From positions 1 to 24,415 of the IMG/VR virus record IMGVR_UViG_3300030106_003582: 24,415 bases of DNA; one strand, given 5' to 3'. Source of the stretch: a virus. Positions 9,613 to 24,041 of the stretch are shown piece after piece. Every line of letters starts with the position of its first letter. Positions within the stretch are counted from its first letter, which is position 1. A model generated the notes under the pieces. That model ran no database searches and had not been told where the DNA came from. It saw nothing but the letters and a program-made list of their open reading frames with translations. Both the position numbers and the translations under genes were made by a program.

Positions 9613-10057
9613 GTTCAAATCCTTTGCGATTTGGATCGTTCAGCGGCAAAAATGCTTTTAGTGCCTCAACACCAACTGTTCGATGTGCCTTCTTTTCTAT
9701 ACGCCTTTTAACGAGAGGATTCAGTTCGTGTGGCTTTACCGGCGGTGCGCCTTTTTTTCTGTTCTGATTTATCTGTAACGCCATCAAGTTTGCTGTATGC
9801 CACCATTCCTGTTCCAAACGAGAATTAGCCATCCAACATAGTTCTCGCAGTGTCAACGGATTGGGGTCAACGCCGACTATTCCGGCAAGTTTCCAGATTT
9901 CAACCCAGAGAGTGCTTCGTTGATAGCGTCGTCCTTCGTTTGATTCAGTCTCAACTCCAGTTCCCTGTCGATTTCCTCGTTCTCCAGAATCGCCAGCATC
10001 TTGTCGTTTGTTTGATTTTGATGATCGGTCGATTTCTCCCAAAGTTTGCGTATCCAC
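9599..10057 (-). CDS. Tail assembly chaperone partner, gpGT-like frame (-1 relative to the upstream gene)
   Basis: This frame shares 181 bases with the upstream chaperone gene in the -1 register. Its first 48 residues, read from a GTG at 10057, are low-complexity and charged and look like shadow. From LWVEIWKLAG onward it has the signature of a conserved phage protein: an A-G-VDP-PLTLREL..MA stretch, then EWWHTANLMAL, then a basic tail. The arrangement matches lambda gpG/gpGT, where a -1 frameshift makes a fusion that helps load the tape measure. No perfect slippery heptamer is present, so translation by frameshift or from a weak internal start is unresolved. Confidence 0.7.
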   Translation of the reverse strand: MDTQTLGEIDRSSKSNKRQDAGDSGERGNRQGTGVETESNEGRRYQRSTLWVEIWKLAGIVGVDPNPLTLRELCWMANSRLEQEWWHTANLMALQINQNRKKGAPPVKPHELNPLVKRRIEKKAHRTVGVEALKAFLPLNDPNRKGFELGKT

Positions 10058-15674: not shown

Positions 15675-16994
15675 TCACTCATCGGTGGTATTGGCAGATA
15701 AAGCACGAAGTTCGGCAATATTTTGTGCCAAGACTGCCGCCTTCTTAGCGTAAATCTCGGTAGTGTTGAGTTGTTTATGACCGAGGATTGCTGAAGCGGC
15801 TTCGATTCCATGCTGATCCCGCACTTCCTGACCGACCTTATGACGGAAACTATAAGGACTAAAAAACTCTACGCCTGCTTTTTCGCACGCTCTCTCTAAG
15901 TGCCTATAAAACTTTTCTTTGTCAAACAACTCCGTTCCTCGGATTGTCATATTCTTCCAGAGGCTGTGAAGTGTTTTTTCGTGTTCTTTCGTCTGGTGTC
16001 GCCAATTACGGACGGTAGCTCGCCCGACACCGAGTTTCTTGGCAACTTTGGCATGAGACTGCGATCCGGCAAGTAGCTTGAGCATTTCGGGAGTAAATTT
16101 CTTCTGATGCTTTTCCCAGTCGTTGAAAGCCCGTGCCTCTCGGACAGTAAAGTAGTAGTTATTACCGGCGTCTGGGCGCACGTCCTGTAGCTTTTCGAGT
16201 GCTTCAATACAGATTTCGTTTAGGAATACGCTACGAACGTGGCCTTTGCCAGCCGTTTTATGCTTCTTTGGTACATATTCCCATGTTGCCGTATTGATTT
16301 CCTGCTTATTGAGATTAGTAAGCTCCGATGGACGCATCCCTGTTTGATTAGCGATGATTATCATCGTTCTCAGCACAGGATTAGTCGCTTGGCAGACCTT
16401 TTCAATCTCAAAGTCACCAGGCGTCTTCATTTCACGGGGATCACGGATGCGATCACGGTATTTCTTGACGATCCGGTTATAATGGCTCATCCCGATCTCA
16501 TCAACAAGTCCTCTAGGAAACATTCTGCGGACTTGACCGTACTTAACGAGGTCACGACAACTCGCAATGATTTTACGCACGGTGGTAATATTCCAACGCT
16601 GAGTCTCTGCGGCTTCTTTGCAGATTGCCTCGACGATCTCACAGAAGTTTTGGCCCGTAAAATTAGAAGCATCGGTCGTGGCGTGGGGTGTAAAGAATCC
16701 GGCTACAGTCTGCGTCCAGCCGTAGACGCTTTCAAAGGTCAACCAGTCACGGACAATCTCGCCAACAATGAAGTGGTATTCACCATTACTTTCGACTGGC
16801 TTCTGGCTTTGGATAGCCTGCACGAAATCGGAAAACTTCTGCTTACTTTCCGGTGTGCCGTGCTTGCCGAAATACTTGAACTTCGGCTTCCTCTTTCCTT
16901 CAGCGTTGAAGGTGTCGTAGGAAGTGTAAGCTCTCCCATCCTTCTTCTTTTTGTACTTCAGGTTGACCGGATAACGTACCTTAAACTCACTCAT
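15675..16994 (-). CDS. int: Tyrosine recombinase (phage integrase) with an HTH-like insertion
   Basis: This protein (439 residues from the preferred start) catalyses site-specific integration. Counted from an upstream Met at 17009, the catalytic set is Arg226 (TGMRPSEL), Lys251, Arg389 in PYSFRHKVG (with Tyr where most members have His), His411 in ILGHKQLNTTEIY, and the nucleophile Tyr420. An N-terminal basic region and a SAM-like core-binding domain precede it. Between Lys251 and Arg389 lies an extra segment (about 305-340) resembling a helix-turn-helix: HAKVAKKLGVGRATVRNW. I chose ATG 16994 because GAGGG lies eight bases before it. A plus-strand ORF across it is a shadow. Confidence 0.93.
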   Translation of the reverse strand: MSEFKVRYPVNLKYKKKKDGRAYTSYDTFNAEGKRKPKFKYFGKHGTPESKQKFSDFVQAIQSQKPVESNGEYHFIVGEIVRDWLTFESVYGWTQTVAGFFTPHATTDASNFTGQNFCEIVEAICKEAAETQRWNITTVRKIIASCRDLVKYGQVRRMFPRGLVDEIGMSHYNRIVKKYRDRIRDPREMKTPGDFEIEKVCQATNPVLRTMIIIANQTGMRPSELTNLNKQEINTATWEYVPKKHKTAGKGHVRSVFLNEICIEALEKLQDVRPDAGNNYYFTVREARAFNDWEKHQKKFTPEMLKLLAGSQSHAKVAKKLGVGRATVRNWRHQTKEHEKTLHSLWKNMTIRGTELFDKEKFYRHLERACEKAGVEFFSPYSFRHKVGQEVRDQHGIEAASAILGHKQLNTTEIYAKKAAVLAQNIAELRALSANTTDE

Positions 16995-17089
16995 TTCACG
17001 CGCCCTCATAGTAAAATGTTGTCAGATTGTTGTCATTTGGGCTTATTTCGGCGTCTTTTTACCGAATCCAAATAACTCCATAAAACACT

Positions 17090-17118
17090 ATTATACTATA
17101 AAACAAGGCATTTGTGAA
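17090..17118 (-). promoter_or_regulatory. Candidate integrase promoter
   Basis: On the minus strand TTCACA (17118-17113) and TATAAT (17095-17090) are separated by 17 bases, a near-consensus sigma70-type promoter reading into the integrase gene. The leader of about 85-90 bases crosses the two left TGTTGTCA repeats, so integrase binding there could repress its own gene. Confidence 0.6.
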
Positions 17119-17219
17119 GACCACCCAGAATCAAGTGGTATTATCGAACACTCTTTCTCCTAAAATGGGCGTGTTGGATAGTACCGTTTTTAAGAAATGG
17201 CCTAAGACCCCTTGTTTTA
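17099..17219. repeat. Widely spaced inverted repeat TAAAACAAGG / CCTTGTTTTA
   Basis: TAAAACAAGG at 17099-17108 is repeated inverted at 17210-17219, 101 bases apart. With neighbouring bases, 13 of 14 positions agree (ACT.TAAAACAAGG). The left copy lies in the spacer of the candidate integrase promoter, so the pair could be operator sites bridged by a looping repressor. Core-type recombinase sites are less likely given the spacing. Confidence 0.5.
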
Positions 17220-17325
17220 CAGTCTTAAACTACTATTTATATCGTCATCGAAAATGGCTGATATGACAACTTATGACAACTTATGACATAATTTGTTGTC
17301 ATTTGTTGTCACTTTGTTTTGAAAG

Positions 17326-17406
17326 TACCGGAGAGAGGACTCGAACCTCCACGCCTTGCGGCAACAGTTCCTAAGACTGCCGTGTCTGCCATTCCACCAC
17401 TCCGGC
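17326..17406 (-). tRNA. tRNA-Leu (anticodon UAG)
   Basis: An 81-base class II tRNA folds from the minus strand. The acceptor stem is GCCGGAG/CTCCGGT with a G-U first pair, there is a D arm, and the anticodon loop CTTAGGA gives UAG, reading CUA/CUN leucine codons. The variable arm has stem GCC-GCAA-GGC, the T loop is TTCGAGT, and the discriminator base is A. CCA is not encoded (the next bases are CTT). It begins 5 bases after the 75-residue ORF, so both are probably on one transcript. Phage genes lie on both sides, so this is a phage-borne gene rather than a host boundary. Confidence 0.92.
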
Positions 17407-17411
17407 TTTAT

Positions 17412-17639
17412 TTACTCCAACATTTCATCCAGAGTTGCTCTATCGGCATCGCCGATGAACAGTGCGATCTTATGAAGTGCCTGCGACAGCCCGACGCCGT
17501 AATTAATGGACACCGACTCGATTTCTCGATCTTCTAAAAACTTAGCAACCCGCTCAAGTTCTGCCGCCTGGCGATTGATCCGCTTGGCAACTTCTATCAG
17601 GTCATCTCGTTTGTATTGTTTAGTTGATAATTTCGGCAT
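17412..17639 (-). CDS. Small helical protein cotranscribed with the tRNA
   Basis: The 75-residue protein starts MPKLSTKQYKRDDLIEVAKR and is predicted to be two helices with a short strand pair (IESVSINYGVGLSQ) between. It has no membrane segment or recognised motif. It is transcribed leftward from the divergent control region, ahead of the tRNA gene and the integrase region. By position it may be a lysogeny-region regulator, but it lacks a clear helix-turn-helix. I do not recognise a family. Confidence 0.55.
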   Translation of the reverse strand: MPKLSTKQYKRDDLIEVAKRINRQAAELERVAKFLEDREIESVSINYGVGLSQALHKIALFIGDADRATLDEMLE

Positions 17640-22461: not shown

Positions 22462-22715
22462 GAACCACAAATAACAAAGAAAAAATAATAAGTTTTCCAG
22501 AATACATCCAAGACAACACTCATTTCTACAAAGGAACAAGAGGGAACTTTTTTGTCTTTGGGGTCGCCTGTAATTACGGTGACGGAGAGCAAAGTACAGA
22601 ATTCATAATTGATCAGGACAGCACGCTGTATCAACGCTTTATCGACACTTTAGCGTCCATAGGAGATGTGCAAGAAGCAGTCACGAAGTTAGTGGTTACT
22701 AGTGATAGCGAATGA
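22458..22715 (+). CDS. Small hypothetical protein before the methyltransferase
   Basis: The 85-residue protein starts MRTTNNKEKIISFPEYIQDN and is mostly polar alpha/beta, with central strands GNFFVFGVACNYGDG and TEFIIDQDST and a helix YQRFIDTLASIGDVQEAV. It is linked to both neighbours by ATGA overlaps and is therefore probably expressed. No family is recognised. Confidence 0.55.
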   Translation: MRTTNNKEKIISFPEYIQDNTHFYKGTRGNFFVFGVACNYGDGEQSTEFIIDQDSTLYQRFIDTLASIGDVQEAVTKLVVTSDSE

Positions 22716-23479
22716 GAAAACTACAAATCGGTAGCTGTTTTTCAGGCATCGGAGGCTTGGAGTTAGGGCTAGAAGCCACTGGTTTTTTTGAAACGAAATG
22801 GCAGGTGGAAATCGAGGACTTCCCGACAAAGGTTCTTGAGAAACATTGGCCGGACGTTAAACGCTGGAAAGACGTAAGAACATTTCCACCTGAAGGGGAC
22901 TGGTCGTGCGACATTTTGGTTGGCGGCTTCCCGTGTCAGGACATATCAATAGCTGGTAAAGGCGGTGGGCTAACCGGCGAACGCTCAGGATTATTTTATG
23001 AGTTGCTTCGCATCATTGACCTTATCCGGCCAGACTGGATATTACTGGAAAACGTCCCAGCAATCCTTCATCGAGGAGCAGATGAAGTATTCCGATCACT
23101 GGCCGAAATCGGTTTGCGTGACGACAATCCCCACTTTAGACGGATGGAAAGTCACTGCTTCCCAGCTTCCTCCGTTGGCGCGCCACATAAACGAGAACGG
23201 TTTTTCTTACTGGCCCACGCCAACCTGTCGGGATTACAAGGATACAGGGAAATGGACAAGCCTCGCGCGATTTGTAGACAAGAAACGCTTGGCGTGTTCT
23301 TTAGCCGCAATCGAAAAGGTTTCTGGGCAAATGAACCCAGCGTTCCCCGAATTTCTAATGGGTTTCCCAAACGGATGGACCGAATTACAGCAATCGGAAA
23401 CGCCGTCGTTCCCCAGGTCGCCGAATACCTCGGATCAGAGATAGTGAGCTATATCAATGATTGTTCTAAAGAAACATGA
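22712..23479 (+). CDS. C5 DNA cytosine methyltransferase
   Basis: The 255-residue protein is a compact Dcm-type methyltransferase that moves a methyl group from S-adenosylmethionine to C5 of cytosine. Motifs in order: I FSGIGGLELGLEA (10-22), IV GGFPCQDIS with catalytic Cys75, VI ENV (113-115), VIII GAPHKRERF (156-164), and X AIGNAVVPQVAEYL (227-240). The segment between VIII and X is only about 60 residues, so target recognition must be minimal, as in many phage enzymes. No restriction endonuclease is next to it, which suggests an orphan protective or regulatory enzyme. A second ORF overlaps its 3' half in the +1 frame. Confidence 0.92.
   Translation: MRKLQIGSCFSGIGGLELGLEATGFFETKWQVEIEDFPTKVLEKHWPDVKRWKDVRTFPPEGDWSCDILVGGFPCQDISIAGKGGGLTGERSGLFYELLRIIDLIRPDWILLENVPAILHRGADEVFRSLAEIGLRDDNPHFRRMESHCFPASSVGAPHKRERFFLLAHANLSGLQGYREMDKPRAICRQETLGVFFSRNRKGFWANEPSVPRISNGFPKRMDRITAIGNAVVPQVAEYLGSEIVSYINDCSKET
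22998..23444 (+). CDS. Overlapping +1-frame ORF with a phage methyltransferase-associated protein signature
   Basis: The 148-residue frame lies wholly inside the methyltransferase gene. ATG 22998 has AGGA seven bases upstream. The sequence contains YSDHWPKS, SQLPPLARHINENGFSYWPT, then PTCRDYKDTG and NPAFPEFLMGFPNGWTEL. I recall this order (WP.S, QLPPL, WPTPT..D.K, NP.WVEWLMGFP.GWT) as a conserved module of proteins annotated in phage methyltransferase regions. Here it is the alternate frame of the methyltransferase motifs, with LMGFPNGWTEL read from the codons for SNGFPKRMDRIT. It could be a separate translated protein or a conserved shadow. Confidence 0.55.
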   Translation: MSCFASLTLSGQTGYYWKTSQQSFIEEQMKYSDHWPKSVCVTTIPTLDGWKVTASQLPPLARHINENGFSYWPTPTCRDYKDTGKWTSLARFVDKKRLACSLAAIEKVSGQMNPAFPEFLMGFPNGWTELQQSETPSFPRSPNTSDQR

Positions 23480-24041
23480 AGTCGTGATATTCACGCCCCC
23501 AAACACTAAAAGCCGACCATTGCACGACGCTCTGTGTGACGCTAAGGGAGCATATTGGGTATTAGGGACAAATAGCCACGCAATCGGCACGCCGCATACT
23601 ACCGTCGTTCCTAACGAGTTTAAGAGCTATAAGCGTGCTTTATTGGTCCGCAATCCCTACACTCGGATGCTTTCGCTGTATCAGAAGTATTTACGCAATC
23701 ATGAGCCTTCGACGGTCAGGCCATACGAATTCATGGAATATAACGACCATTTGTCACGAATGGGTTGGGAGCATGAATTTACAATCAACCATTGGTGCGG
23801 TGGTATACATTTTGATTACTTACTTCACGCCGAAACAATCAGGAAAGACCTGCGGCAGTTCATGCCACGAGTTCCTAAAGTTGATGAGACAGAGTTCGAT
23901 CCGCTTGATTGGGATAAACAGTTTAGACCGCTAGGCTATGATCGGCTAGTCGAATTATATGAGCGAATATTGCCTGATTTGATTTACGGTTACGACCGGA
24001 TAGCAATTACTCCCACAAGAGCTAGGTTGTTATGCCATTAA
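23457..24041 (+). CDS. Sulfotransferase-like protein
   Basis: The 194-residue protein resembles family 2 sulfotransferases. An N-terminal strand-loop-helix VVIFTPPNTKSRPLHDAL (residues 9-25) stands in the place of the 5'-phosphosulfate loop, and LLVRNPYTRMLSLYQKYL (62-79) matches the 3'-phosphate motif (VRNPY.R..S.Y). His47 precedes it as in many members. The remainder is shorter than cellular enzymes. The family moves sulfate from PAPS to hydroxyl or amino groups. The first loop is atypical (PPNTKS rather than PKTGST), so activity is uncertain. It overlaps the methyltransferase stop by 23 bases. Confidence 0.65.
   Translation: MIVLKKHEVVIFTPPNTKSRPLHDALCDAKGAYWVLGTNSHAIGTPHTTVVPNEFKSYKRALLVRNPYTRMLSLYQKYLRNHEPSTVRPYEFMEYNDHLSRMGWEHEFTINHWCGGIHFDYLLHAETIRKDLRQFMPRVPKVDETEFDPLDWDKQFRPLGYDRLVELYERILPDLIYGYDRIAITPTRARLLCH

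Follow-up and report, generated by a model that had tools for sequence, protein, structure and literature searches.

The window, by which we mean the whole stretch of 24,415 nucleotides analysed here (IMG/VR record IMGVR_UViG_3300030106_003582, from a marine bacterial virus), contains a tyrosine integrase gene flanked on one side by arrays of a short repeated word and a tRNA gene. Portal, protease, capsid and tail genes are found to the left of the integrase gene, and small helix-turn-helix genes, RecT and a DNA methylase to the right of the tRNA. At the right end of the fragment, a sulfotransferase-like gene (23457-24041, a weak match) adjoins a C-5 cytosine methylase gene (22712-23479). The features on which the following analysis is centred are these:

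15675-17009, minus strand: tyrosine integrase of 444 aa (PF00589, 1.5e-12; phrog_1, 4.5e-18; R, H and Y motifs TGMRPSEL, FRH and LGHK..TTEIYA)
15975-16100, minus strand: helix-turn-helix insert in the integrase catalytic domain, residues about 304-345 (HTH_23, HTH_Tnp_1 and HTH_29 around 1e-4, below the Pfam cut-offs)
17017-17035, plus strand: left, integrase-side arm-type repeats (TGTTGTCA at 17017 and 17028, 11 bases apart)
17090-17118, minus strand: sigma-70-like int promoter TTCACA-17-TATAAT (11 of 12 consensus positions; TTCTCA-17-TATAAT in the related contigs L003 and L004)
17121-17185, minus strand: hairpins (17137-17185 and 17121-17138) with compensatory changes among relatives
17154-17166, minus strand: proposed attP core, the invariant 13-base block ATTTTAGGAGAAA, containing TTTAGGA (17158-17164), the anticodon loop of planctomycete tRNA-Leu(UAG)
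17262-17311, plus strand: right arm-type repeats (TATGACAACT at 17262 and 17272, a partial copy at 17282, TGTTGTCA at 17294 and 17304; 10-base phasing)
17325-17406, minus strand: complete phage tRNA-Leu(UAG), the proposed replacement for a broken host gene (ARAGORN; Rfam, 52 bits)
17412-17639, minus strand: 75-aa ORF directly upstream of the tRNA and in the same direction (relatives in L003, L004 and L107)

The integrase gene directly adjoins the repeat region and its catalytic motifs are conserved. Its helix-turn-helix-like insert is kept in contigs L102 and L105, and the integrases of L111 and L107 apparently carry an insert in the corresponding position. Searches for homologues of the integrase gave none among named phages, and one distant match only (28% over 40%) in plasmids. 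The int promoter is located on the integrase side of the proposed core, and would thus remain with int after integration. Eight bases after its −10 box begins a tiny ORF on the minus strand, MELFGFGKKTPK (17044-17081), in which the changes seen in L003 and L004 are synonymous only, and which could possibly be a leaderless leader peptide. The 75-aa ORF is probably cotranscribed with the tRNA-Leu gene.

The initial annotation described two copies of the repeat on the left at 11-base spacing and four to five on the right with a 10-base period in both orientations, and this count was confirmed, with four full copies and one partial copy on the right. The two TATGACAACT words are reverse copies of TGTTGTCA whose starts are 10 bases apart; they are followed by the partial fifth copy, TATGACAT, and by the two plus-strand TGTTGTCA words, also 10 bases apart. 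GTTGTCA occurs six times within the 295 bases of 17017-17311, where about 0.05 occurrences are expected. For the window as a whole the count is 12 and the expectation from shuffled sequences 4.3, none of 100 shuffles getting to 12. The same annotation took the roughly 230 bases between the arrays as noncoding; indeed, 17037-17262 (226 bases) is free of any convincing gene, but it is far from empty, since it carries the strong sigma-70-like promoter of int, the covarying hairpins and the invariant 13-base block.

Three more IMG/VR contigs contain this integrase, L002 with 100% identity and L003 and L004 with 84%. All full repeat copies are kept in L003 and L004 despite integrases that are only 84% identical, and the arms are identical across the four contigs save for a single position in L003 that adjoins the partial copy. 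In the more divergent contig L102, the right arms are built from a related word, TTATGTCATA, with the same 10-base period. Another contig, L008, was discarded as a relative, its 18-base match being due to chance. As phage genes flank the region on both sides in the window, L002, L003 and L004, the putative attP is unbroken in all of them, and the DNA of the window was therefore not integrated at this site, which rules out a prophage inserted here. The proposal that the window comes from a virion or circular form holds to that extent; a virion and an excised or replicating intracellular form look alike in these data.

The portal gene led us to phages of the same group that have other integrases, and the neighbouring MarR-like protein to further ones. 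Six of these (L107, L111, L113, L176, L177 and L178) share portals or neighbouring genes like those of the window and encode different integrases. In all six, arm-like repeats of another word flank the 5' half of a tRNA that stops at the anticodon loop, tRNA-fMet in five cases and tRNA-Ser in one. In each of the five fMet phages (L107, L113, L176, L177 and L178), tandem copies of a word of its own (TTACGCA, TTACGGAT, TTACACA, TGCACA) enclose about 250-275 bases, and CGCGGGGTGGAGCAGCCCGGTAGCTCGCGAGGCTCATAAC, corresponding to the tRNA-fMet 5' half up to the anticodon loop, is located between the arms; in L111, GGTGTCCA repeats surround the tRNA-Ser 5' half. These halves lie at 2299-2339 in L107, about 1758-1799 in L113, about 2018-2058 in L111 and upstream of int in L176, L177 and L178. 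Since identity with the tRNA stops at the anticodon loop, strand exchange in the attP of these relatives evidently occurs there, and when the four fMet phages tested were joined in silico to a host tRNA-fMet, a complete tRNA was rebuilt on one side. These phages carry a 5' half instead of the more usual 3' half, with a promoter-like sequence upstream in some of them; among distant relatives, L148 has a tRNA-Ile 3' half and L147 the complete gene beside int. The window, with repeated arm-type sites on both sides of its putative core, matches the layout of the six relatives, whose other integrases come with other repeat words, and this comparison supports the earlier reading of the arrays as P and P' arm-type integrase sites. 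The repeat word follows the integrase while the architecture stays, which is what would be expected of an attP and not of the operators of a regulator. Binding of the integrase to the TGTTGTCA arm sites is predicted.

The attP of the window differs from those of the six relatives in having no tRNA half. What it does contain is TTTAGGA, which corresponds to the anticodon loop of planctomycete tRNA-Leu(UAG) over its full length and is oriented like the tRNA halves of the relatives. TTTTAGGA is the only word of at least 6 bases common to the window, L003 and L102 at about equal offset from the right arms, the offsets of TTTAGGA being 98, 98 and 101 bases, respectively. The portal of L102 is 98% identical to that of the window and its integrase 43% identical, with a middle region otherwise unalignable; its contig stops inside the right arms. 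In shuffled L102 sequences, TTTAGGA fell within 5 bases of that offset in 0.2% of cases and any shared 7-base word in 7%, and either of the Leu(UAG) loops TTTAGGA or CTTAGGA appeared anywhere in the shuffled middle of the window in 6.5%. The distances from core to arms are 97 and 121 bases, as compared with about 140-165 and 96-109 in the fMet relatives, a difference that, like the 6.5% of shuffles, counts against the proposed core. TTTAGGA was chosen after three candidate cores had been examined, and we regard the evidence for it as good but not conclusive. One rejected candidate was the inverted repeat TTCGGT-AAAAAGAC-RCCGAA (17049-17068), inside the tiny ORF, which would have meant that a host protein gene receives its 5' end from the phage; a genome scan returned 52 hits, all of them chance matches or unrelated coding DNA. 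A further point against TTTAGGA is that GTCTTAGG (17201-17208) also resembles a Leu loop. This word is part of a different invariant block, the longest one, and has around it an inverted repeat, spaced by 7 bases, that is clear in L003 and one mismatch short in the window.

On the host side, a pattern around the motif GAYTTAGGATC matched in 124 of the 170 genomes from a single planctomycete order and was single-copy in 122 of those 124, indicating by this pattern a single tRNA-Leu(UAG) gene. Joining the halves of the host tRNA-Leu(UAG) in silico to the flanks of the window, L003 or L102 yielded no tRNA on either side; the core would hence be too short to rebuild the tRNA, conditional on its having been placed correctly, and integration at tRNA-Leu(UAG) would remove a single-copy tRNA. 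The core shared by attP and attB is probably only 7-8 bases long, so that a search for longer identity finds nothing, and blastn of the middle region against 392 planctomycete genomes gave chance matches only. Of the two places suggested for a short identity with the host attB, 17036-17263 or the tRNA 3' end, the former contains the match of TTTAGGA to the host loop, whereas the latter falls outside the arms and is not taken as the core. Neither close homologues of the integrase nor a lysogen containing it were found in the bacterial genomes searched, and for this reason we infer the site of strand exchange, TTTAGGA with attB in tRNA-Leu(UAG), from the comparisons above.

The phage tRNA of the same isoacceptor lies 13 bases outside the right arms. 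It differs strongly between the window and L003, in a compensated way: when both are aligned to two host tRNAs, pairing is kept in 99% of stem cells, and nine pairs are changed on both sides. This compensated divergence indicates that the tRNA is functional, under structural selection and outside the identical block, and the isotype that it supplies is the one matching the core. Its best match is the tRNA-Leu(UAG) of several genomes of the planctomycete order (84-86% identity over about 70 bases). We would expect it to be expressed in the lysogen and to be needed there.

Further elements are found between the arms. The hairpins of the window and L003 (in the latter at 9824-9893) fold better than shuffled sequences, lie between core and arms and show compensatory base changes between relatives; in L102 a strong hairpin (140-187) is located beside its TTTAGGA and not around it. 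The idea that the core belongs to a known RNA was dropped, as an Rfam search gave no match besides the tRNA. An inverted repeat, CCTTGTTTTATAGT / ACTGTAAAACAAGG (17095-17108 and 17210-17223), about 55-60 bases to each side of the core, could possibly represent excision-factor sites, and CTTGTTTT-like words are present in the attP of L111, L113 and L178 too. It would be tempting to combine these data into the double proposal that tRNA-dependent lysogeny arose independently in phages of Planctomycetota from an ancestor that reconstructed the tRNA from its 5' half, and that the covarying hairpins are a structured part of attP needed by the integrase with the helix-turn-helix insert to accept a 7-base core; as a whole, we hold this to be rather improbable.

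Concerning the host, the 33-base fMet-half stretch plus the next C is found exactly in 24 of 392 genomes of Planctomycetota, and all 28 genomes from other phyla lack it. Relatives of the portal occur in 26 of the 170 genomes of the planctomycete order, the best 20 at 37-49% identity, and the best match in 50,697 phage records reached about 26%. Furthermore, two complete genomes of that order contain prophages with related portal and capsid in tRNA-Leu genes (CAG in one, GAG in the other), situated between two tRNA-Leu 3'-half copies that are identical from the anticodon stem onward. These observations, together with the similarity of the tRNA of the window to host tRNAs, make a planctomycete the most likely host.

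Taken together, the data suggest that a temperate tailed phage infecting Planctomycetota has its attP, intact and suited to tRNA-dependent lysogeny, at 17017-17311, a reading that we consider likely. According to this proposal, the integrase (15675-17009) would bind the TGTTGTCA repeats to the left and right of the core, and strand exchange would take place between TTTAGGA (17158-17164) and the anticodon loop, identical to it, of the single tRNA-Leu(UAG) gene of the host. With only 7-8 bases common to attP and the tRNA, insertion of the phage would destroy that gene, so that a single-copy leucine tRNA gene of the host is probably broken, and the phage tRNA-Leu(UAG) at 17325-17406, just outside the right arms, would take over.

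The two-sided arms hold without any claim on the core, and attP could accordingly be intact with core and attB elsewhere, for example at GTCTTAGG (17201-17208), at TTCGGT-AAAAAGAC (17049-17068) or in an intergenic site. In that case the tRNA-Leu would be an ordinary phage tRNA that aids translation or evades anticodon nucleases, and phage tRNAs often have other roles. GTCTTAGG stands in the longest invariant block and has 8 bases in common with the phage's own tRNA; however, L102 lacks it in the corresponding position, and the agreement of GTCTTAGG with host loops extends over 6 bases only, while the genome scan for the TTCGGT-AAAAAGAC element gave chance or coding matches only. The tRNA, moreover, is located right at attP, and its isoacceptor is the one predicted by the TTTAGGA match. 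A core elsewhere therefore appears unlikely to us.

As for the repeats themselves, they flank the int promoter and leader and are present in both orientations, as in operators, which would also be compatible with a regulator that controls int and the tRNA operon instead of with arm sites. Yet relatives with another integrase show an entirely different word in an unchanged two-sided arrangement around a tRNA half, and conservation is higher in the neighbouring MarR-like gene than in the repeat word, which makes a role as operators very improbable. We judge equally remote the idea that the tRNA-Leu itself is the attB-derived core, with exchange at its 3' end and all arms on one side. The 3' ends of tRNAs are common attB sites, and planctomycete integrases are mostly found beside complete tRNA genes; the tRNA of the window, however, is complete and outside the arms, it differs strongly between the window and L003 while the arms are identical, and the core is between the arms in all six relatives. 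The tRNA 3' end was rejected as the core on account of its position outside the arms.

The attP of phage lambda is likewise located beside int, and its arm sites, a pair on one flank and a larger number on the opposite one, extend over about 240-300 bases. The window resembles it in the two-sided arms, in their extent and in their position next to int, and differs in that the attB of lambda is outside tRNA genes and lambda carries no tRNA.

A closer parallel is provided by tRNA-dependent lysogeny, defined in 2024 in phages of Actinobacteria and tested so far only there, in which a short core flanked by arm-type sites fails to rebuild the tRNA and a phage tRNA of the isotype of the host gene is required for lysogeny (Guerrero-Bustamante & Hatfull 2024, PMC10865867). 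The examples given there include Fionnbharth, Cluster L and Gaia, with published cores of 8-17 bases, and its authors state that the spread beyond actinobacteriophages needs further investigation. Reports on Sinorhizobium also discuss this type of lysogeny, one of them describing it as absent in phiLM21-like prophages and pointing to Mesorhizobium-phage-like prophages that show it. The window is predicted to fit the published definition, and would extend this type of lysogeny to another phylum with a case that is clear at the level of sequence. It comes with a built-in comparison, since sister phages with related portals but another integrase have half a tRNA and lack a spare one, and it offers one concrete reason why a temperate phage might keep a single tRNA gene beside attP. 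It also provides a simple search rule for more cases, namely arms that flank a stretch free of any tRNA half and that have an entire tRNA gene next to them.

Like the actinobacteriophage systems (PMC10865867), the window combines a tyrosine integrase and a short putative core flanked by arm sites with a predicted failure to rebuild the tRNA at integration, and it has close relatives that do rebuild it. Gaia likewise involves a tRNA-Leu, but with anticodon CAA and an 8-base core (PMC10865867). Prophage Lj965 of Lactobacillus johnsonii is reported, as cited in PMC10865867, to integrate without tRNA rebuilding and to have the cognate tRNA in the prophage, as predicted for the phage of the window; going by that citation, it differs in host and in phage group. 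Unlike the actinobacteriophages (PMC10865867), the window is assigned to a host among Planctomycetota that we infer, would use the isoacceptor Leu(UAG) and has its tRNA immediately beside attP, all this being known here from sequence alone. Its putative core of 7-8 bases is at the low end of the 8-17 published, which with 7 bases counts against the proposed reading, and its relatives rebuild the tRNA from a 5' half, not from a 3' half.
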